A DNA stretch of 62,692 nt from contig CAKUED010000019.1 of NCBI GenBank assembly GCA_934646005.1, forward strand, positions 1 to 62,692. The letters are read 5' to 3'. The notes under the pieces were generated by a model. That model saw only the letters and a list, made by a program, of their open reading frames with translations. It was not told where the DNA came from and did not search any database. Positions 12,522-23,265 of this stretch are shown here, piece by piece (positions within the stretch are counted from its first letter, which is position 1; the number at the start of each line of letters is the position of its first letter). Source of the DNA: an uncultured Oscillospiraceae bacterium (lineage in GTDB: Bacteria; Bacillota; Clostridia; Oscillospirales; Oscillospiraceae). The translations under genes and the position numbers were made by a program.

Positions 12522-12558
12522 GGAATCCCTCTCTCCCCTGTTGTTTTTTCGCGCCGCA

Positions 12559-12582
12559 GCCCCCGGCAAAGCTGCCGGGGGC
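12559..12582 (-). other. GC-rich intergenic hairpin between trpX and trpY
   Basis: Perfect stem GCCCCCGGCA/TGCCGGGGGC, 4-base loop, no T-run on the transcribed strand. Likely protects the trpX part of the message from 3' decay so the binding protein is made in excess; inference. Confidence 0.65.
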
Positions 12583-12606
12583 GCGGGCTATATTATAATG
12601 TAGGAC

Positions 12607-13695
12607 TTATTCTTTCGTCGTGCCGACCTCGACCAGCTCGCCCATGTCGGCGAACACAGCCGGGTCGATGCCGAGCGCGGCGGCGGTCTCGGTGTTGACG
12701 GTGATGATGCCGCCGTCCATCAGGTAGTAGTCGTCCAGACCGTCCATGCCCGCGGTGATTGCCTGATAGGCGAGGTCCGCGGTGCGCGCGCCGAGGCTGG
12801 TGTAGTTGACGCCGCAGGTGGCAAACGCGCCGTTGCGGACGAAGGAATCAGCGCCGGCGTAGTGCGGGATGCCCGCCTTGGCAAGGTCCTCGTAGATGGC
12901 AAGCTCGGCTGCCATGATGACGTTGTCGGTCGGGGTGAAGATGGCATCCACGCCGTCGGCGATGAGCGCTGCCGCTGCGGCGACGACCTCGTCGTTGGTG
13001 TTGGCGGTCTGCTCGGTGTAGGCGATGCCCTTTTCCTCAAGATACGCCTTGGCGTCGGCGATGGGGGTCGCGGAGTTCGGCTCGGACAGGGAGTACAGCA
13101 GACCCACCTTCGCGGTGTCGGGGTTCTGTTTCAGCATCATGTCGAGGATGAACGCGGTGTTCAGCGCGTCGCTCGTGCCGGTCACATAGTCGATGCCGGT
13201 GAGCTTAGCGGCGGCGGGGTCGGAGATGGCGGCATACACGACCGGGGTCTTGCTGTCCTCCGCGGAGAGGGCGGCGAGCTGCGCGGCGGTGGTGGCGATG
13301 GGGATGATGGCATTCACGCCATCGGCGATCGCCTGATCGGTGAGCTGCTTGAGGATGGTCTGGTCGTTCTGCCCGGAGGTGACGGTGTATTCGATCGTCA
13401 CGTTATTTTCTGCCGCGATCTCATCCAGCCGCGCGGAGATGGCGTTTGCGATCTCATCGAGCGAGGCGTGGTCGAGCTGCTTGACGATGGCGACCTTGTA
13501 GGACGCACCGCCGGCGGCGGGAGTTTCTTCGGCTGCGGGAGCTTCGGTTGCAGGGGTCTCAGTTGCGGGGGCATCCGTCTGCGCGGGGGTCTCGGCTGCG
13601 GGGGTGTTGGTCTTGCCGGCACACGCTGCCATTGTCAGCAGCATCACGATCGCCAGCATCACGGCACAGAGCTTTTTCAGGTTCATGGTTTTCAT
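12607..13695 (-). CDS. trpX: Tryptophan ABC transporter substrate-binding lipoprotein
   Basis: 362 residues. Lipoprotein signal (LAIVMLLTMAAC, Cys25) followed by a Thr/Pro/Ala/Glu-rich linker (about 28-62), then an ABC_sub_bind-type domain: YKVAIVKQLDHASLDEI, TSGQNDQTILKQL, IIPIATTAAQL, IDYVTGTSDA and IFTPTDNVIM. It should capture substrate outside the membrane and pass it to TrpY. GGAGGAAACC precedes the ATG. First gene of the operon and directly behind the Trp T-box, which sets expression by charging of tRNA-Trp. Confidence 0.9.
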   Translation of the reverse strand: MKTMNLKKLCAVMLAIVMLLTMAACAGKTNTPAAETPAQTDAPATETPATEAPAAEETPAAGGASYKVAIVKQLDHASLDEIANAISARLDEIAAENNVTIEYTVTSGQNDQTILKQLTDQAIADGVNAIIPIATTAAQLAALSAEDSKTPVVYAAISDPAAAKLTGIDYVTGTSDALNTAFILDMMLKQNPDTAKVGLLYSLSEPNSATPIADAKAYLEEKGIAYTEQTANTNDEVVAAAAALIADGVDAIFTPTDNVIMAAELAIYEDLAKAGIPHYAGADSFVRNGAFATCGVNYTSLGARTADLAYQAITAGMDGLDDYYLMDGGIITVNTETAAALGIDPAVFADMGELVEVGTTKE

Positions 13696-14055: not shown

Positions 14056-14084
14056 ATTATACGCGCGCACTATCCATCTGTCAA
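14056..14084 (-). promoter_or_regulatory. Consensus promoter of trpXYZ
   Basis: Perfect TTGACA (14079-14084), 17 bp, perfect TATAAT (14056-14061) on the minus strand; start near 14049. Such a strong promoter fits control by attenuation downstream. Confidence 0.92.
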
Positions 14085-14390: not shown

Positions 14391-15434
14391 TCAGGCAAGC
14401 AAAGTATCCGCGATATTTTTTGCAAACACGTCCAGCTTCGTGCCGACGTTTTCCGCCTCGGCGGCAGCGCCGGGGTCGTTTGCCGTTTGCAGGAGGCAGA
14501 AGCGCGGCGGCAGGATCGCCGCCTTGTTGAGGCACATCGCGCCGAGCACCTGCCGCGCGACCAGGTCGCTCCCCGAAAAGCCGGACACGACGACCGCCCA
14601 GACATACTTATCCCACAGCTCACGCACGACGGCGAGATTCGTCAGGCGGTTAAAAAACGCGGTCATGTTGGCGCTCACGGCGTCGTTGTAGTTCGGGCAC
14701 AGCAGCAGCACCGCGTCCGCCTGCTGCACGGCGGGGAGCACCTGCTCCGTCACCGCGCCGCCGTAAAAGCAGCGCCCGCCCTCGGCAAAATGGCGGCAGG
14801 CTTCATACGAGCAGCCGCGGCAGTCCTGCACCGTGCCGTTTTGCAGCAGAATTTCGCGCGTCGAAATTGCCTCCGGCAGGCGCGCGAGCGTCTGCCTGCC
14901 CATCCAGACGGTATTTGAGCCGGGGTTGGACGAGGCGTGGAGCATGAGCAGCTTCGGCTGCGCAAATTTCGGCGGCGTAAAGTCCGCCACGCGCTCGCAA
15001 AGCTGCCGCGCGCGGGTAAAATACGCCTGCTCCAGCGAAAGATGCTGCGTGGCGGCGAAAATATGCTGGTTATAGAGCGACCCCGTGCCCTCCACGAGGG
15101 GCTTACCGGGAAACAGACACCCGGCGGAGTTTGCCGCGAACACGAGCGCCTGCGCCGCCGCCTTGCTGTAAAGCTCGCCGTCCGCGTCCACGATCACGCC
15201 GCCGGTGCAGCCGGAGAGGCAGCCCGGATGGCTGCGCAGCGCGCGCAGGAGCGTATGCAGCTCCGCCGGTGCGCCGAACGCGTCCACATGGACGGCAAAG
15301 ATCACCCGCGCACCGGCAAGATGCGCCGTATCCGCCGCGCCCGCGCGGCACACGCGCAGGTCGCCCGCCGCAAAGGTCAGCAGCCGCCCAAGGCGGTCGC
15401 TTTCGCCGATCTGGATGAGGGTCAGCTCGTTCAT
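14391..15434 (-). CDS. Flavodoxin-like NAD(P)H-dependent reductase, two-domain
   Basis: 347 residues, cytoplasmic. Residues about 165-340 look like the flavodoxin/NADPH-dependent FMN reductase fold: LLMLHASSNPGSNTVWMG (phosphate-binding turn), CRGCSYEACRHFAEGGRCFYGG (cysteine-rich substrate lid seen in iron-sulfur flavoprotein relatives) and ADAVLLLCPNYNDAVSANMTAFFNR. Residues 1-150 form an extra domain I cannot name, with two cysteines in HPGCLSGCTGG. The ATG overlaps the upstream stop (ATGA), so translation is coupled to the dehydrogenase-like gene. Last gene of a three-gene operon; partner reaction unknown. Confidence 0.65.
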   Translation of the reverse strand: MNELTLIQIGESDRLGRLLTFAAGDLRVCRAGAADTAHLAGARVIFAVHVDAFGAPAELHTLLRALRSHPGCLSGCTGGVIVDADGELYSKAAAQALVFAANSAGCLFPGKPLVEGTGSLYNQHIFAATQHLSLEQAYFTRARQLCERVADFTPPKFAQPKLLMLHASSNPGSNTVWMGRQTLARLPEAISTREILLQNGTVQDCRGCSYEACRHFAEGGRCFYGGAVTEQVLPAVQQADAVLLLCPNYNDAVSANMTAFFNRLTNLAVVRELWDKYVWAVVVSGFSGSDLVARQVLGAMCLNKAAILPPRFCLLQTANDPGAAAEAENVGTKLDVFAKNIADTLLA

Positions 15435-16672
15435 TCGTATCTCAGCTCCCTGAGTGCCGCGTAGCTTGCTTCCAGACGCGCAGCGAGCGCGGGAGCAAGC
15501 GCCTCGCGGTAAGTTTCCGCCGCCGCGCCGCAAAGCCGGCTGCGGCAGCCGAAATAGCAGCCGCCCAGCGCCACGGCGCTTTCAAACCAGTCGCCGCGCA
15601 GCATCCGCAGAATGGACACCGCCGCGGACGACAGCCCCGGCGCGATGTAGGGCTTGAAGCCCAGCTCGCGCACCTGTAGATTCAGCGTGCGCGCCAGCTC
15701 GGTGAGCCCTTCGGAAAGCGTCGCGTCATAGCCGTCATTCGGCGCGTTGCAAACGACCAAGCCCTCGCCGTGCGGACCGAACGCGCGCCCGCGTGTAAAG
15801 TCCGCGCCCAAGCGCTTTGCCGCATACGCCGCGCGCGCCTGCATCACGCCGAGCCCAAACCCGCGCACCTGCTCAGGAAGCAGCCCCGCAAAGTCATACT
15901 CACCGCTCTGCGCGCGGTTCGAGTCGAGAAACAGCGCCCGCGCCAGCGGATCGACGGGGTCGGACACCTGACAGAACAGCCCGCAGAAATTTTCTTCCCG
16001 CGCGCGGCGGGCATAGGTGCGGAGCATTTCGCGGTTTTTGGCAAACTGCGCCATGCGCACATCTTGTACCTTGCTGTCAAGCCCCGGCACGCCGCGCGAG
16101 GCAGTGAAGATGAGCACGTCGCAATGAAACAGGTCTTGTTCTCGGCAGACGGACACCTCCGGCATCGGCTCGCCATCGTGCAGCGGCAGCACCTGCCCCA
16201 GCTCCATCACATAGCGCGCCATCAGCGGCTCGTAAGGGTCAAAAATGCCGATCGTGTCAATGCAGCCGCCGCCGAGAAGCTTCAGCCCCGTCAGCACCGT
16301 GCCGCCCACGTCGCCCAGCCCCACGAGGTTCACGCGCAGCCCCGACTTTTTGCGTGCAAGCTGCGCGGAAAGTACGGAAAATGCCCGTGAAAACGCGGTA
16401 TTGAGCACGATCGCGCCGTCTTTTTCGATGAGCGCATTTACTTCCTGCGGCAGCACCGGCGCGTCCGCCCGGCAGGGCATGAGGCGTGCAAGCCCGTCCG
16501 GCTCGCCGAGCTCCCGCGCGCTGCGGATAAACCTCAAGCCGCCGCTGTCCTTCGCGGGGCGGTTTTCCAGAATGACCAGCGGCGAAAACGGCTGCGCCGC
16601 CTCGCGCGCGTCGGGCGGGAACTGTCCGCCGCAGGAAACCAGGCACGCCCCGTGCCACTCACGGTACATCAT
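15431..16672 (-). CDS. Lactate/malate-dehydrogenase-like NAD-binding protein
   Basis: 413 residues. A Rossmann nucleotide site NLVGLGDVGG lies near residue 115, and DVLIFTASRGVPG followed by VRMAQFAKNREML and VSDPVDPLARA mirrors the TAGVPR...N...SNPVD order of lactate/malate dehydrogenases. The family's catalytic His/Arg cannot be placed with confidence, and the N-terminal 110 and C-terminal 130 residues are extra, so the substrate is open. Its start overlaps the end of the giant gene by 14 bp, with AAAGGAG inside that gene; two adjacent ATGs are possible. Confidence 0.6.
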   Translation of the reverse strand: MMYREWHGACLVSCGGQFPPDAREAAQPFSPLVILENRPAKDSGGLRFIRSARELGEPDGLARLMPCRADAPVLPQEVNALIEKDGAIVLNTAFSRAFSVLSAQLARKKSGLRVNLVGLGDVGGTVLTGLKLLGGGCIDTIGIFDPYEPLMARYVMELGQVLPLHDGEPMPEVSVCREQDLFHCDVLIFTASRGVPGLDSKVQDVRMAQFAKNREMLRTYARRAREENFCGLFCQVSDPVDPLARALFLDSNRAQSGEYDFAGLLPEQVRGFGLGVMQARAAYAAKRLGADFTRGRAFGPHGEGLVVCNAPNDGYDATLSEGLTELARTLNLQVRELGFKPYIAPGLSSAAVSILRMLRGDWFESAVALGGCYFGCRSRLCGAAAETYREALAPALAARLEASYAALRELRYE

Positions 16673-19600
16673 GCGCGTAACGCTCCTTTCGTTCAATGCG
16701 CGAGAGCTGCTGTAAGCTGTCACGCAGGTAGTCGGACGCGGGCAGGCGCTCGTCGTGCATCATGCACACGCCCTGCTCCGGCAGGCGCGGCTGATACAGC
16801 GCCTCGCCCAGACGGCGGATGGTCAGATTCGCGGCGAACAGGTCCTGATTCGCGCGTTCGAGCGCGCTGAGGATTTCCAGCGCGTTTTCCAGCGCCGTGC
16901 GCGACAGGGCGTACACGTCCTCCGGCGCGGCGTCGCGGAAATAATTGGGGTAGTAATACGGCAGGATGAGGTTGATGGACGGCAGGCTTCGCTGCGCGCT
17001 GCGCGTGCCCTCCACGCTGTCGCCGCCGAGGAAGGGGTAAAACAGGCTCTCCGTCGCCCAATAGTGCAGGTTCGGGATAAAATATTCGCACTCCACCGTG
17101 CGCCCCTGCTGCTGCATGATGTCCCGCCCGCGCCCGGACAGGATGGCGACGACGATCTTTTCCGGCTCAAAGCCCTCGGCGCGGAACACCTTGTCGAGCT
17201 TTTCCAGCCGGTAGCCGTTGTGCAGCAGATCGTCCACCAGCAGCACCGGGCGCTCAAAGCTCTTGAGCATCCGCACCTGGCTGCGCAGCGGCGAATAGCC
17301 GGGGAACTCCACGATCTCAAAGTGCTGAAGATCGGCGCAAAAGCGCTTTTCCACATGGAGCGTTTTTGTGACCGTGTGCGGCACGACGACATCGGAGAGA
17401 ATTTTTCCGTATGGCACGCACATCCCAGCGCCCAGCCGCACGCCCTCGGGCAGGCGGTCGATGCCGTTTAATTTCTGCACGCGCTCCATGAGCGTCTGGT
17501 TGAGCTGCTCGGAGTCAAAGCACAGCAGCAGCGTCCCGGGGAACATCCGCCCCAGCGCCGCGCGCAGGCGCGGGCGCGTGCGGGCAACTGCGTCCTGCAC
17601 GAGCGCTTCTGAATGCAGCGGCTGCTTGACGGCAAGCAGCACGTCCTGCAGCAGCATGACCGGCGCGCGCATATCCACGCACCAGAGCGTATCCTGCGCG
17701 CCGAGGGGCAAAAAGCCGAGCTGCAAAAGCGCCTCGCGCAGCGCGCCGTCCTCCCGCTCACAACGGCAGACGGCATAGGTGTGATCGCCCTCCAGACTGC
17801 GCGCAAGCAGCTCGTTGAGCAGCATCCGGCAGCGCTCCGCGTCGGGTTCGCCTGCACAGCAGACGTCCCGCACCAGCAGCAGCCGCCCGGAGGCACGCGC
17901 GCGCACCTCGCTTGCCGCCGCGAGCGAGCCGAGCGCGCCGTACAGCTCGCCCACCTGCACCGTGTGCCCCACGCACCAGCCCGTGAGCTGCCCGTATTCG
18001 CACAGCGTCACGGCAAGCGGATGCGCCCGCGCGTCCATCGCCGCGCACATTGTCTGCGGCAGCTCCGGCGCTGCCTCGCGGTACAGGCGGTACTGCCGCT
18101 CCTGCCGGGACAGCTCGTTTTTCGTCTCCGGCTCGCGGATATACAGGCGGTTTTCGTAGATAAACGACTGCACCACGGGATCGACGAGCATGGAAATATC
18201 CAGCCCGCGATCGACATAGTCGCGGATGCGCGTGGAGCTGACGGTCTCGTAAAACGCCGGGAGTGACAGCACGCGCAGCTTTCCGCGGATGACGGACGAG
18301 AGCGCCTGCCGCGCCGCCTCCGTCTCTTCGCCGCGGCAGAAAATGATGTGGTTATACTCCGCCGCCGCGCCGGGCTCGTGGCTTCGGTAGGCAGACGCGC
18401 CGCGGATGACGTCGCTGCCCGCCACAAGATACAGCTCCCGCTCCGGCAGCAGACGCTTCAGCAGCGCCAGATCGCGCGGCATGGCGATGTTGATGGGAAT
18501 ATCGTCCGGGAACAAATAGGTATCCCACTGGTCGGCGGCGGAGATCATGGCGATCTGCCGCCGCAGGAGCTTGGCAAGCGTCTTTTTGCTCCACGAAAAT
18601 TCGTCGATCGCCAGATATACCTCAAAGCCCAGCGCGCGGATGTGCTCCACGATCTGCTTGTGCCCGGCGGAAAACGGGTCGAACGTGCCGGGGAAGAACG
18701 CCGCAGGCTTTTGCGGCGCAAACGGCAGCGCGCCGCACTCGATCTCATAGCGTACAAGAAAGCGGTAGAGATGGTTGAGCATCGCCGCGTCATGAAAGCG
18801 CACGGTCTGCCCCGCGCGCGGCTCGCACAGGAGCGTGAGCAGCTTTTTGTGCAGCCGCGCAAACAGCGCCCCGCGGAACGAGAGCGGCAGCGCGTCGCTC
18901 CCGAATAAGTCGCAGCAGAGCACCTGCATCGCCGTCTGGTGCACGTCCGCGTCATAGTGGCTTACGCCCGTCATCAAATTGCCGAGCAGGCGGCTGACGA
19001 TCTCACCGTGTGTCTGCCCCAGCGCGGCGATGACCGCGCCAATGGCGGCAAGCGCCACGCTCGCCGTGCGCGCGGACGCGCCGTGCGCCATTTTTTCGAG
19101 CGTATCGACCGCCTCCAGCAGCTCCTTTTCCGGAAGCAAGCAGATGAACTGCCCGATGTAGGGCGGGATGAAGCGCGTGATCTGCTCCTCGCCGGTCTCG
19201 AGCTCGCGCAGCAGGTCGCAGGCGATCTCGTTGATCTGGTCGGCGGGCAGGCGCGGCGCGATGAGCAGCAGATGCCGCCCCGCCGATTCGCGCACCGGCA
19301 GATGCTCGGACACGCAAAGTAAGTTGGAAAAATGCAGCGCCGTGTGGAACACGTCGTGCCCGCTCGCGAGCGCGTCGGCGCACAGCAGGTCAATCTGCGC
19401 GAGCTTGACCGTCCAGTGGACGGCGTTTTTGAGGTTGCTGAGATACAGCGCCGCGACCTCCTGCTCCCGCAGCGCCGCCGGGCGCACGCCGCAAAGCCCC
19501 GCGCGCAGATAGTCCGCCGCCGCTTCGCCGCTTTCGGGAATGCGCTGCGCCAGCGCGTGCACCGCCTCGCGGCACGATTCCTTCTGCCGCAGGTGCAGAA

Positions 19601-21284
19601 GAAGCTGCATCGCGATCAGGCGGCGGTGCGTCTCGCCCGACTGCACCATCGGGGCGAGCAGTTTGAAAAGCGCCTCGCACGCCTCGTCCGGCAGATACGC
19701 GCACGGCACATGGCACAGCGCGTCCGTGAGCGCAAAGCGCTGCGCGCCCTGCGCCGTTTGCAGCTGCGTCAGCAGCGGGGCGAGCAGCCCCGGCGCGGTT
19801 TCCGGCGCGGCGGCGGCAAACAGGCTTTGGCAGATGGTTTTGAGGGAATTGGCGATCCGCAGCGCATGGCGCGGGGAATATTTGCGGTCAGGATACAGGC
19901 AGGCGTCCAGATAAAACGCCCACAGCTCCGCCGCCTCATCGAGCAGCGGCGCGGTGGCAGGCGCGGCGGCAGCGCCGCTCTCGCCCTGCGGGCGCTCCTT
20001 GCGGTAGCTCGGGCCGCTGTTTGCCAGCACCTCGCCCATCGTCTGCCCCGCCATACGGCGCACGTCGCCGTCGGGGTGGGACAGGAGTTCGTATAAAAGC
20101 CGCAGCAGCTTTTTCTTGTTTGCCTTGGAAAGATAGGCGCTGTATTCGCGCAGCAGCGTCAGGTCGCTGCGGATGCGGCGCAGGTCCTTTTCGCTCTTCG
20201 CCTGCTCTAAAAGGCGCGAGAACGACGCCTCCACGCTGATCGTGCGCATGAGGCGCGTCGATCCCTCCAGCGTGCGGACGCGGATGCGCGCCAGCGCGTC
20301 CTGCGCGCTCAAAAGCGCCGCGTCGCGCGTATCGGGCGGCGTGAGCGTATTGTCCGATAGCTCCAGCGGCACGCCGTGCGCGCGCAGCAGCGCCTCAAAA
20401 TCGCAGAGCTTTGCGTAGACGCTGCGGTATTTTTTCTGTTTTTCCCCGGTCATATCCGCCAGCTTCGAAAAGACCATCGCATACGCGTCCGCCAGCGAGT
20501 AAACGCGCACCGTCTCGCGCCCCGCTTCGCGCGTGCCGCGCACGCGGAAGTCCGCCCAGATGAGCAGCAGCGCCTCGATGGGCAGGTTCTCGAACTCCAG
20601 ATCCCAGGTGGAGTGATTCGCGGCGACGTGCCCGATCTCCTCCATGCCGTTGCGGCTGAACCAGCGCCAGGTGTAGTAGTAGTGCAGATACGCCGTGCGC
20701 GCGGCATTTGCGCCGCGGCAGCCGAATTTGCCCACATCGTGCCCGAACGCCGCACCGCTGACCAGCGGCAGATCGACCGCCAGCCCCGCGCGGCGCGCGA
20801 GGATCGCGGTATGCAGCGCCAGATTGTGCACGCCGATGATGTGCGACGCGGGGTCGATCACGCCCGCCTCGCGCGTCAGGCGCAGGAGCGCCGGGATGTG
20901 ATCGCGCTGCACGCACGCGGTAAAGCGCGCGTACTCTGCTGCCACGCGGCTGCCCGCGCGCGCGTCCTCCGGCACGGGAATGAGGTCCGTCAGCGGGTCG
21001 GGCGCGCCGTCATAGCACGCGAACAGCGCTTCCAGCGCGGCAAGAAACTGTGTCTGTTCGGCATCCAGTTCACGCGCCGGGTGCGTCTCGTCGGGGTAGA
21101 GATTCGCGGCGAGCTGCGCCGTGAGCGCGGTCAAAAATGCTTCCGCGTCCGCCTGCGGCAGGAGCGCGCGCAGTGCGCGATGGGCAAGCTGCGCGTCGCG
21201 CCCGTCCAGCTCCATCAGCCCCGCCGGGACGTCGTCCGTCCCCAGCGCGGTAGCCAGCACGGCGCGTTTTTCTTCCTGCATCAT
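16659..21284 (-). CDS. Giant HD / helical-repeat / NMN-adenylyltransferase-like / phosphoribosyltransferase-like fusion
   Basis: 1541 residues, no membrane segment. Residues about 150-330: HD-type hydrolase (HNLALHTAIL, then FGHDVGK with H182-D183, later NHSTWD). About 390-850: leucine-rich helical HEAT/ARM-like repeats. About 860-1050: nucleotidyltransferase of NadD type, FFPGTFDPFSAGHK with the HxGH-like site, LVAGSDVI and SSTRIRDYV. About 1050-1290: a linker region with GNAT-like features. About 1290-1450: phosphoribosyltransferase-like, VLLVDDLLHNGYR at 1347-1360. The ATG at 21284 has AGGTGGGG upstream; GTG four codons earlier is less likely. First gene of a three-gene overlapping operon. 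A role in NAD or nucleotide metabolism is inference from the domain pair. Confidence 0.7.
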   Translation of the reverse strand: MMQEEKRAVLATALGTDDVPAGLMELDGRDAQLAHRALRALLPQADAEAFLTALTAQLAANLYPDETHPARELDAEQTQFLAALEALFACYDGAPDPLTDLIPVPEDARAGSRVAAEYARFTACVQRDHIPALLRLTREAGVIDPASHIIGVHNLALHTAILARRAGLAVDLPLVSGAAFGHDVGKFGCRGANAARTAYLHYYYTWRWFSRNGMEEIGHVAANHSTWDLEFENLPIEALLLIWADFRVRGTREAGRETVRVYSLADAYAMVFSKLADMTGEKQKKYRSVYAKLCDFEALLRAHGVPLELSDNTLTPPDTRDAALLSAQDALARIRVRTLEGSTRLMRTISVEASFSRLLEQAKSEKDLRRIRSDLTLLREYSAYLSKANKKKLLRLLYELLSHPDGDVRRMAGQTMGEVLANSGPSYRKERPQGESGAAAAPATAPLLDEAAELWAFYLDACLYPDRKYSPRHALRIANSLKTICQSLFAAAAPETAPGLLAPLLTQLQTAQGAQRFALTDALCHVPCAYLPDEACEALFKLLAPMVQSGETHRRLIAMQLLLHLRQKESCREAVHALAQRIPESGEAAADYLRAGLCGVRPAALREQEVAALYLSNLKNAVHWTVKLAQIDLLCADALASGHDVFHTALHFSNLLCVSEHLPVRESAGRHLLLIAPRLPADQINEIACDLLRELETGEEQITRFIPPYIGQFICLLPEKELLEAVDTLEKMAHGASARTASVALAAIGAVIAALGQTHGEIVSRLLGNLMTGVSHYDADVHQTAMQVLCCDLFGSDALPLSFRGALFARLHKKLLTLLCEPRAGQTVRFHDAAMLNHLYRFLVRYEIECGALPFAPQKPAAFFPGTFDPFSAGHKQIVEHIRALGFEVYLAIDEFSWSKKTLAKLLRRQIAMISAADQWDTYLFPDDIPINIAMPRDLALLKRLLPERELYLVAGSDVIRGASAYRSHEPGAAAEYNHIIFCRGEETEAARQALSSVIRGKLRVLSLPAFYETVSSTRIRDYVDRGLDISMLVDPVVQSFIYENRLYIREPETKNELSRQERQYRLYREAAPELPQTMCAAMDARAHPLAVTLCEYGQLTGWCVGHTVQVGELYGALGSLAAASEVRARASGRLLLVRDVCCAGEPDAERCRMLLNELLARSLEGDHTYAVCRCEREDGALREALLQLGFLPLGAQDTLWCVDMRAPVMLLQDVLLAVKQPLHSEALVQDAVARTRPRLRAALGRMFPGTLLLCFDSEQLNQTLMERVQKLNGIDRLPEGVRLGAGMCVPYGKILSDVVVPHTVTKTLHVEKRFCADLQHFEIVEFPGYSPLRSQVRMLKSFERPVLLVDDLLHNGYRLEKLDKVFRAEGFEPEKIVVAILSGRGRDIMQQQGRTVECEYFIPNLHYWATESLFYPFLGGDSVEGTRSAQRSLPSINLILPYYYPNYFRDAAPEDVYALSRTALENALEILSALERANQDLFAANLTIRRLGEALYQPRLPEQGVCMMHDERLPASDYLRDSLQQLSRIERKERYAHDVP

Positions 21285-21357
21285 AGCGTTCCCCACCTTC
21301 GGTACTAGTTTCTGCTATTTTACCACAGTATCACGGTCGTTTCCAATGTTTTTCTGA

Positions 21358-22944
21358 TTATTTACCACTTGCTCCGTAGTTCGAGAGTACGCGTGCCGAC
21401 GGGTCTTTCACGTCGCAGCCCTTCCATGCCTTGTTCGGCATCCAGAAGTCCTTGACCATCTTTGCCTGACCGGGGTAGTATTTCTCAAAGATCTCGCGGT
21501 ACAGCAGGCTCTCTTTTGTAAACGGCTGGGCAAAATCGTACTGCTTGCATTTTTCGGCAAATTCCTTGTCGGTGTAACGGCTCTCGGCGTATTCCTTGAG
21601 ATCGTCCACCATGGAGTGCCCCACCGCGTCGGAGAACGCCGCCTTCTGCCGCCAGAGGATGTCCTCGGGCAGGATGTGATCGCCCGCGAACGCTTTTCGC
21701 AGGAGGTATTTGCCCATGTCGTAGGTGTTGAGCTTCTTTTCCGGGTCGATGGACATCACATATTTCACAAAATCCAGGTCGCCGAACGGTACGCGCGCCT
21801 CCAGAGAGTTCACGCTGATGCAGCGGTCGGCGCGCAGCACGTCGTACATATACAGCTCGTCCACGCGCTTTTTTGCCTCCTGCTGGAACGCTTCGGCGGA
21901 GGGCGCGAAATCGGTGTATTTATAGCCGAACAGCTCGTCGGAAATTTCGCCCGTCATGAGCACGCGCACGTCCGTCTGCTCGTGGATGGCTTTGCAGCAC
22001 AGATACATCCCGATGCTCGCGCGGATGGTCGTGATGTCATACGTCCCGAGCAGGGCGATGACCGGCTCAAGCGCGTCCAGCACGTCCTGCTTTGTCATGC
22101 TGACCTCGGTATGCTCCGCGCCGATGAAATCCGCCACCTCGCGGGCGTATTTGAGGTCGATGGGGTCGAGGTCCATGCCGATGGCAAACGTCCGAATTTT
22201 CTTTCCCAGCAGCTTCGCCGAGATGGCGCACACAAGGCTGGAATCGAGCCCGCCGGAGAGCAGGAAGCCGAGCGGCGCGTCGGCGTCCAGTCGTTTTTCC
22301 ACGCCCGCGATCAGCTTTTCGCGGATGGTCTTGCAGACGGTGTCCAGGTCGTCCTCACAGTAGGCTTTGACCGTGGTGAGGTCGGCGTAGCGGACGAATT
22401 TGCCGTCCTTGTAGTAATGTCCCGGCGGGAAGGGGCAGACCTCTTTGCACAGCCCGATGAGGTTTTTCGCTTCGCTGGCAAAGACGATACCGCCGTCCGC
22501 GAGATACCCGTAGAACAGCGGGCGGATGCCGATGGGGTCGCGCGCGGCGACGAGCGAGTCCGACGCCGCGTCGTAAATGACCATGGCAAACTCCGCGTCG
22601 AGCTTCGCGAACATCTCCACACCGTATTCCTTCCACAGCGGCAGGATGATCTCGCAGTCGGAGTCGGAACGGAACGTATACCCCTTCGCTTCCAGTGCCT
22701 TTTTGACCGGGCGGAAGCCGTACAGCTCGCCGTTGCACACCGCCGCGTCGCCGCCGAGGTAAAACGGCTGCATCCCTTCCTCATGCAGCCCCATGATCGC
22801 CAGCCGGTGGAAACCCAGGCAGCTCGCCGAGCCGACGGCTTCCAGCCGCGTGGCGTCCGGCCCGCGGGAGACGGTGCGGTCAAAATAGGGGCGAACTTCG
22901 TCCGCCGTCAGAGTTTTCGACGTAAATCCAATAATTGCACACAT
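21358..22944 (-). CDS. asnB: Asparagine synthase (glutamine-hydrolysing)
   Basis: 528 residues. Makes asparagine from aspartate, glutamine and ATP in the cytoplasm. The start MCAIIGF puts the nucleophile at Cys2 after Met removal; CNGELYGF and the N-terminal Ntn amidotransferase span about 1-200. The synthetase domain has the P-loop LLSGGLDSSL near residue 230 and LMTGEISDELFGY. Compared with the long B. subtilis-type AsnB it is the shorter E. coli-type length. GGAGGTG precedes the ATG. Expression is governed by the Asn T-box immediately upstream; glnN, the glutamine source, is the next gene. Confidence 0.95.
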   Translation of the reverse strand: MCAIIGFTSKTLTADEVRPYFDRTVSRGPDATRLEAVGSASCLGFHRLAIMGLHEEGMQPFYLGGDAAVCNGELYGFRPVKKALEAKGYTFRSDSDCEIILPLWKEYGVEMFAKLDAEFAMVIYDAASDSLVAARDPIGIRPLFYGYLADGGIVFASEAKNLIGLCKEVCPFPPGHYYKDGKFVRYADLTTVKAYCEDDLDTVCKTIREKLIAGVEKRLDADAPLGFLLSGGLDSSLVCAISAKLLGKKIRTFAIGMDLDPIDLKYAREVADFIGAEHTEVSMTKQDVLDALEPVIALLGTYDITTIRASIGMYLCCKAIHEQTDVRVLMTGEISDELFGYKYTDFAPSAEAFQQEAKKRVDELYMYDVLRADRCISVNSLEARVPFGDLDFVKYVMSIDPEKKLNTYDMGKYLLRKAFAGDHILPEDILWRQKAAFSDAVGHSMVDDLKEYAESRYTDKEFAEKCKQYDFAQPFTKESLLYREIFEKYYPGQAKMVKDFWMPNKAWKGCDVKDPSARVLSNYGASGK

Positions 22945-22961: not shown

Positions 22962-23265
22962 TAAAATAAGCGGCAGTATCTCCTGAATTTCAGGACGAAT
23001 ACTGCCGATCCGCGGTGCCACCTGCATTGCTGTTTTCACAGCCCCTTGACGAGCTCTGTTAAGCCCGTGCGCCTTAACGCCGCGCATTGCGTCTTTCCTA
23101 CTGAGGATGGCTTCCCGTTCAGTCCGCTGCTCCGAAGTGTTCGTTCCGCAAGGGCTGCTGCCGGGCTCTCACCTGTCCCCGGCTCTCTGGGAGCGCGTGC
23201 TCGCGTACTTTTCTTCATCATAGCATTTTGCCATATACTTTGCCGCTTTGCACGGCAAAATTTAT
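22962..23265 (-). promoter_or_regulatory. Asparagine T-box leader
   Basis: Minus-strand leader with AGTA, AGAGAGCC and GGTGAGAGCC in stem I, T-box AGGTGGCACCGCGGAT (23008-23023), and terminator CGGCAGTAT/ATACTGCCG (22971-23007) before a T-rich run. Aligned with the Trp T-box of this window by the downstream CTTNNGAG, the specifier is AAC (23139-23141), an Asn codon; a one-base shift would give CAC (His), but asnB downstream favours Asn. Confidence 0.88.

Follow-up and report, generated by a model that had tools for sequence, protein, structure and literature searches.

A giant NMNAT-fold fusion protein and two redox partners are encoded by one conserved three-gene unit

The closest described relative of the locus reported here is NadD-YqeK, which is fused in mycoplasmas and clustered in Gram-positive bacteria. 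The published account (PMC9426524) presents the HD domain fused to NadD as a diphosphatase able to remove wrong dinucleotides, which makes this system a precedent for a nucleotidyltransferase and an HD domain acting as synthesis and proofreading. We analysed a stretch of 62,692 nucleotides from an uncultured Oscillospiraceae bacterium (contig CAKUED010000019.1), hereafter the window, in which three overlapping genes lie in one direction on the minus strand at 14391-21284. Gene 1 (16659..21284, minus strand) encodes a giant protein of 1541 residues, which consists of an HD domain, an ARM/HEAT-like solenoid, an NMNAT-like domain, a GNAT-like domain and a phosphoribosyltransferase-like (PRTase-like) domain. 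Gene 2 (15431..16672, minus strand) encodes a protein of the lactate/malate dehydrogenase (LDH/MDH) superfamily with about 100 extra N-terminal residues, and gene 3 (14391..15434, minus strand) encodes a flavoprotein of the FMN_red family that has an additional N-terminal domain as well as four invariant cysteines. Like NadD-YqeK, the giant holds a NadD-fold adenylyltransferase and an HD phosphohydrolase in one polypeptide. However, its HD domain is N-terminal, some 560 residues ahead of the NMNAT part, and does not resemble YqeK in profile comparisons; a GNAT-like domain, a PRTase-like domain and two redox partners are added; and the giant lacks the PHK and YTxxT motifs of 8 aligned ordinary NadDs, a separate ordinary NadD being present as well. 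The parts are known folds, and the five-domain giant with its two partners matches no system found in our searches. In the literature searched, a scope outside which most subscription papers fall, we found no paper on the architecture of the giant; the first-pass annotation, made by a model from the letters of the window, had known of no described pathway with this gene set. In sequence sources, the giant is annotated as hypothetical, as a 'cytidyltransferase' or as a nicotinate mononucleotide (NaMN) adenylyltransferase.

The co-occurrence of the three genes is near-perfect. We searched 391 genomes from the class of a genome (G001) that was chosen as the centre for having the giant; this class sample and the phylum sample below are partial. 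Gene 1 found matches in 115 of the 391 genomes, in 83 of which every match is of NadD size and falls within residues 839-1083, and the giant is present in 32, or about one in twelve, including one (G182) that holds it in part only. Gene 2 was found in 31 and gene 3 in 30 of the 391 genomes (E <= 1e-10), all within the 32 carriers of the giant, and at this threshold neither gene was seen without the giant in any of the 391. The genome with the partial giant has neither gene 2 nor gene 3, and another (G244) is without gene 3, its gene 2 match running to the end of the contig. Within the family of G001, 27 of 200 genomes matched, 2 of them with NadD-sized matches only, and the giant is present in 25, in three of these in pieces (G001 and G004 were known beforehand). 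Gene 2 was found in 8 of 398 phylum genomes, of which G001 and G068 were known beforehand. The carriers include gut-derived genomes (L003) and a named isolate, Acetoanaerobium noterae, which has the trio.

The gene order is conserved as well. The first-pass annotation had described an overlapping, same-direction set of three genes; the open reading frame (ORF) coordinates agree with this, and in 35 of the 46 loci surveyed (the window, L001-L004 and L066-L106) the genes form a tight trio in one direction, with gaps of less than 700 and less than 500 nucleotides. Its expectation that the three genes would be found together in other genomes also held, in 30-31 of the 32 class carriers. Elsewhere, a PhzF-family gene (12555-13415) lies between the giant and gene 2 (L067), or an ammonium transporter and three glutamate-synthase-type genes do so (L088, 7918-13236; L089, 12561-17764; Pfam was run on the L088 copies). 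The trio is cut by contig ends in L077, L081 and L085; no gene 3 was found within 5 kb in L071; and in L070 gene 2 lies elsewhere in the genome. The other three loci without a tight trio are those of the paralogues described below. Across 36 loci, the protein distances are correlated between genes 1 and 2 (0.86), 1 and 3 (0.92) and 2 and 3 (0.84), none of 999 permutations reaching these values in any pair, and the trees of the three proteins, which carry no support values, agree in 22-23 of 33 splits; such agreement is the expectation for any genes inherited together. We conclude that genes 1, 2 and 3 form one functional unit. Their shared occurrence and order demonstrate that they work together but do not tell what chemistry they perform.

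The giant is a real protein family and not a chance reading frame. At E <= 0.001, 736 proteins matched gene 1 (7992 candidates scored); the best 120 are all 1502-1609 residues long, while the matches beyond these may include ordinary NadD-type proteins. Twenty-one members, 50-73% identical to the window protein, align with it from end to end with a mean column identity of 66%. Gene 1 starts at an ATG at 21284, preceded by a Shine-Dalgarno-like stretch, GAAGGTGGGG, and ends at 16659; the mechanical ORF opens at a GTG 4 codons before this ATG, and ORF numbering therefore equals ATG numbering plus 4. Across the 22 aligned members, there is no variation in the ligand-type residues of the HD domain, in the principal residues of the NMNAT motifs or in D1355, D1356 and R1363 (ORF numbering) of the loop of the phosphoribosyl pyrophosphate (PRPP) type; the glycine of this loop is kept in 21, the remaining one having an alanine. 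The motifs H182-D183, FFPGTFDPF, SSTRIRD and VLLVDDLLHNGYR, on which the first-pass annotation had built its domain reading, are all present. AlphaFold and profiles give five domains, of which the PRTase-like one is the least certain; the HD domain, the helical repeat and the NMNAT fold of that earlier reading stand, and the GNAT-like domain had been missed.

The HD segment (20382..20969, minus strand) has the ligand-type set H152, H186-D187, H205, H228 and D249 (ORF numbering), and the set H...HD...H...H...D is complete in 45 of 45 aligned copies. Pfam HD matches 11 of 22 members (best 3.6e-4), and the models TIGR00277 (HDIG) and TIGR00295 match 13 and 30 of 43. No YqeK model was among the 13 families listed for the 43 members at E <= 0.1, and hhalign against 7 YqeKs that had been recognised by their motif in genes next to nadD gave 6.7% over 41 columns round the HD motif only, with controls at or below 0.16%. 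The HD domain is followed by an all-helical, ARM/HEAT-like solenoid of about 520 residues (18735..20306, minus strand), identified by AlphaFold2 (N-terminal half: pLDDT 87.4, pTM 0.86) and by Foldseek, which returned importin, designed armadillo, Kap121 and PP2A-A chains with E-values of 1e-6 to 6e-5 and low TM-scores.

The next domain (18132..18707, minus strand) has the NMNAT/NadD nucleotidyltransferase fold. Its core transfer motifs (FDP..H, GxD with an aromatic residue at +8, and SS[TS]xIR) are intact in 41 of 45 aligned copies, the others being three decayed paralogues and one copy cut by a contig end. The +8 aromatic is a tyrosine in the giants (a phenylalanine in one) and a tryptophan in the 8 aligned NadDs. 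When 11 giants were aligned with 8 ordinary NadDs encoded by carriers, the giants proved to lack the latter's PHK and YTxxT motifs and to have SWSK and, in most copies, NIAxPxD in their place. Since we take these two motifs to face the nicotinate side of NadD, the acceptor of the giant may not be NaMN. The window giant scores 37.1 bits and the giants of 10 other genomes at most 56 bits against TIGR00482, short of the equivalog cut-off of 112.45 bits. The possibility that the giant is the housekeeping NadD was rejected: each of 10 carriers tested also encodes a distinct NadD that scores above this cut-off, and YqeK, picked by motif, was found in 7 of 11 ordinary NadD loci of carriers. Because the ordinary NadD is kept, the giant is an extra system.

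The explanation that we favour, if tentatively, is that the giant is a fused enzyme that makes and checks a dinucleotide, with the NAD-binding dehydrogenase-like protein and the flavoprotein as its partners; we infer every chemical step of it. The NMNAT-like domain would transfer adenosine monophosphate (AMP) from ATP to a mononucleotide, giving an NAD-like dinucleotide that would differ from ordinary nicotinate adenine dinucleotide or NAD on the non-adenosine side. The PRTase-like domain would make, bind or take apart that mononucleotide, and the HD domain would clear away, by hydrolysis, any product that is wrong, surplus or damaged, in the way that YqeK serves NadD. The solenoid would dock partner proteins, perhaps the products of genes 2 and 3, of which the former would bind the product or NAD(H) and carry out or check hydride transfer, and the latter would supply or remove electrons. 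The giant would thus be a making-and-checking machine for a redox dinucleotide, a second combination of NMNAT and HD working in parallel to the housekeeping NadD; should it indeed produce or edit a dinucleotide, redox-cofactor metabolism has a branch that is so far undescribed. The first-pass annotation had proposed that the genes could assemble, repair or recycle a pyridine or other dinucleotide cofactor, with HD removing a faulty product and the two redox proteins using or testing it; our analysis supports this proposal in part. A bolder version, which we hold to be unlikely as it stands, is that anaerobic Clostridia have an NAD-like dinucleotide redox cofactor, undescribed so far, which this unit would produce, proofread and use: the mononucleotide would be built by the PRTase-like domain and adenylylated by the NMNAT-like domain, whose pocket is altered, the HD domain would edit, and the dehydrogenase-like protein and the flavoprotein would be dedicated users.

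The same domains could instead serve the repair or salvage of damaged ordinary NAD(H), the HD and PRTase-like domains dismantling damaged NAD(P)(H), the NMNAT-like domain re-adenylylating the product, and gene 2 and the flavoprotein detecting or oxidising abnormal reduced forms. The tie of the redox proteins to the giant in 30-31 of 32 genomes would suit such a role, as would the proofreading precedent for an HD domain and a nucleotidyltransferase in NAD synthesis (PMC9426524). However, two motifs of the ordinary NadD are replaced in the giant, and a patchy occurrence, with gene 2 in 8 of 398 phylum genomes, is odd for the repair of a universal cofactor. In addition, known NAD repair relies on other protein families. 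We consider this explanation distinctly unlikely. A link to nicotinate salvage was rejected: matches to the nicotinate phosphoribosyltransferase model, most of them weak, were found in 15 of 31 carriers and 17 of 31 non-carriers (the genome with the partial giant was left out).

The GNAT-like domain (17646..18101, minus strand) was assigned from the order of its strands and helices, Foldseek and alignment. Rows of the viral library named GNAT or N-acyltransferase have TMt 0.49-0.65 and weak E-values of 3.4e-3 to 1.2e-2 (e.g., A0A3G4ZNH2, E 4.9e-3, prob 1.00, TMt 0.65), and presumably fall on this segment. Acetyltransf_1 matches the segment in 3 of 33 members (best 0.019), the window member not among them, and hhalign against GNATs gave 15%, 16 of 30 comparator loci having passed the filters. 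The acetyl-coenzyme A (CoA) loop, Q/R-x-x-G-x-G/A, was not found as a conserved motif when the 33-member alignment was read by eye. The PRTase-like domain (16974..17606, minus strand), with the loop VLLVDDLLHNGYR (DDxxxxGxR), resembles type I phosphoribosyltransferases through a weak profile match centred on this PRPP-type loop. PF00156 matches 25 of 34 members (best 3.4e-5), the window member not among them, and in 6 carriers the matches listed by a genome scan with this model did not include the giant. Eight of 10 weak PDB matches (E 0.11-1.5) are PRTases or PRPP synthetase, and hhalign gave 36% to 21 PRTases (of 30 loci, those that passed the filters) and 56% and 10% to two subgroups, with controls at most 1.5%. 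A weak viral-library match to Hpt was also obtained (E 6.3e-3, prob 0.99, TMt 0.43); all GNAT and PRTase rows of that library have E > 0.001, and the Foldseek-PDB and VIA rows for the C-terminal half are filled by the NMNAT domain and uninformative on these two parts. The first D, the G and the R of the loop are kept in 44 of 44 copies that reach it and the second D in 40; the canonical ending [ST]-[GA]-x-[ST], seen in most comparator PRTases, is not present in the giant. Of the profile and structure checks that the first-pass annotation had named, those on the nucleotidyltransferase segment thus confirmed the NMNAT fold, and those on the PRTase-like segment gave weak scores, with none for the window's segment alone. 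A search for stand-alone GNAT-PRTase proteins gave 97 matches, which we tentatively interpret as fragments of the giant; some are on long contigs and may be genuine stand-alone versions.

The predicted MDH-like Rossmann protein proved, by profile, to belong to the LDH/MDH superfamily (9dq7, E 2.9e-8). Ldh_1_N matches 32 of 35 gene 2 members; the window sequence alone has no Pfam match and a weak NCBIfam LDH match. Like L-lactate/malate dehydrogenases, the protein has the NAD-binding Rossmann part: the second and third glycines of the dinucleotide loop are present in 35 of 35 members and the first in 24, the rest having alanine, and the equivalent of D53 is kept in 32 of 35. Residue equivalences were drawn from an alignment with two true LDHs, and residue roles, including that of H195 and D168 as the catalytic pair, are what we presume from LDH. 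The positions aligned with R109, N115, R171 and H195 are unchanged in all 35 members. Unlike in these dehydrogenases, the catalytic pair is incomplete, the histidine being present and the D168 position a methionine in 35 of 35. The flavodoxin-like reductase was likewise recognised, as an FMN_red protein (PF03358, 52.8 bits against a gathering cut-off of 24); its profile found no PDB match at E <= 0.1. What we take to be its FMN-site residues are conserved in 36 of 36 members, as are four cysteines, C204, C207, C212 and C221. The PF03358 match and the compact four-cysteine motif, which we presume to be akin to that of iron-sulfur flavoproteins, liken the protein to NADPH-dependent FMN reductases and iron-sulfur flavoproteins, whereas the spacing C-x2-C-x4-C-x8-C and the additional N-terminal domain set it apart. 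The cysteine spacing suggests an iron-sulfur cluster.

Three genomes (G159, G203 and G314) each hold a second giant whose NMNAT site has decayed to varying degrees (L087, 7986-12881; L100, 7518-12434; L082, 5378-10093), while the HD set and the PRPP-type loop are intact. No gene 2 or 3 lies within 5.4-8.0 kb downstream of these paralogues, and all three adjoin an APH-family kinase gene on the other strand. Because the decayed copies have neither redox gene nearby, the intact NMNAT site goes with the redox partners, although three cases are few. The paralogues perhaps represent a second, unlinked use of the same scaffold, and they amount to a natural control that could tell apart the roles of the individual parts.

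Several observations count against a making-and-checking enzyme. The decayed paralogues have been kept, so the other domains are useful without adenylyl transfer. The PRPP-type loop lacks the Ser/Thr found in ordinary PRTases, the CoA loop is missing from the GNAT-like part, and either domain may therefore have no catalytic role; the scores behind the two assignments are weak, and neither family is matched by the segments of the window's giant taken alone. In gene 2, all 35 members have D, M and P where LDH has N140, D168 and E194, which makes LDH-type catalysis doubtful. Nicotinate phosphoribosyltransferase is not associated with the giant, context beyond the trio, whose clusters were not annotated one by one, gives no pathway, the widest neighbour cluster covering 7 of 45 loci, and a NadD fold alone shows no function. 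A sensor or regulatory hub is the main and a serious rival, which we rank below the making-and-checking enzyme and regard as possible rather than probable. In such a hub, the NMNAT-, GNAT- and PRTase-like domains would bind NAD(H), ATP, PRPP or CoA-type ligands without turnover, the solenoid would relay to partners, catalysis would be left to HD alone, and the products of genes 2 and 3 would be redox-sensing partners. The non-canonical PRPP-type loop, the missing acetyl-CoA loop, the changed active-site residues of gene 2, a solenoid of about 520 residues, the persistence of HD and PRPP-type loop after NMNAT decay and the presence of an ordinary NadD all speak for it. Against it speak the NMNAT motifs, whose conservation in 41 of 45 copies goes beyond what mere binding should require, and the four cysteines and FMN-site residues of gene 3, kept in 36 of 36. 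If the giant senses a dinucleotide, it represents an undescribed kind of metabolic control.

The long solenoid adjoining the nucleotidyltransferase also suggests a modifier of macromolecules, which would place AMP (nucleotidyltransferase) or a ribosyl group (PRTase-like domain) onto a protein or RNA bound to the solenoid, from which HD would erase it; GNAT-like domains often act on proteins. However, no widely recurring neighbour offers itself as the target, the widest other cluster being that of 7 loci, and the NMNAT motifs fit small-nucleotide acceptors, so that we consider this explanation improbable. The cluster of 7 loci resembles a MATE transporter, named from a reading of its sequence. 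A phage, plasmid or defence origin was rejected after phage, plasmid, PADLOC and PHROG searches. The C-terminal 704 residues of the giant had no phage match, and the three proteins had no PADLOC or PHROG match at E <= 0.01. The single 'plasmid' match to these residues is a 2.63-Mb Acetoanaerobium noterae record (NZ_CP154629.1; L106), labelled plasmid pTPELB2 in PLSDB, whose size and gene content look chromosomal.

In the window, genes 1 and 2 overlap by about 14 nucleotides, the start of gene 2 at 16672 having been inferred from relatives and its end being 15431, and gene 3 (ATG at 15434, end at 14391) overlaps gene 2 by 4 nucleotides. An asparagine synthase gene, asnB (21358-22944), ends 73 nucleotides upstream of the giant on the same strand and is led by a T-box (RF00230, 102 bits; 22988-23230, minus strand). 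Between asnB and gene 1 lies a promoter-like site, TTGGAA-18-TAAAAT with TG (21317..21346, minus strand), a consensus match only. Riboswitch control of gene 1 was considered and rejected, since no Rfam match was found between gene 1 and the preceding gene in 11 sources (the window and 10 loci). In L088 (1867-7714), an FMN riboswitch (RF00050, 109.9 bits) and a gene read as ribU-like stand directly before the giant on its strand, and a relative of this gene is likewise upstream of the giant in L089. The giant may thus share transcripts with the T-box-led asnB in the window or with the riboswitch-led ribU-like gene in L088. A type III glutamine synthetase gene and asnB lie beside the window's giant; the nitrogen genes near the giant in L088, L089 and the window may hint at nitrogen metabolism or be there by chance. 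Downstream of the trio is an ABC-transporter substrate-binding gene (12607-13695), preceded by a perfect TTGACA-17-TATAAT promoter-like site (14056-14084, minus strand), which also lies upstream of what appear to be its permease and ATPase genes, as read from their ORFs. A purine riboswitch (RF00167, 53 bits) lies at 2541-2641 on the plus strand of the window.

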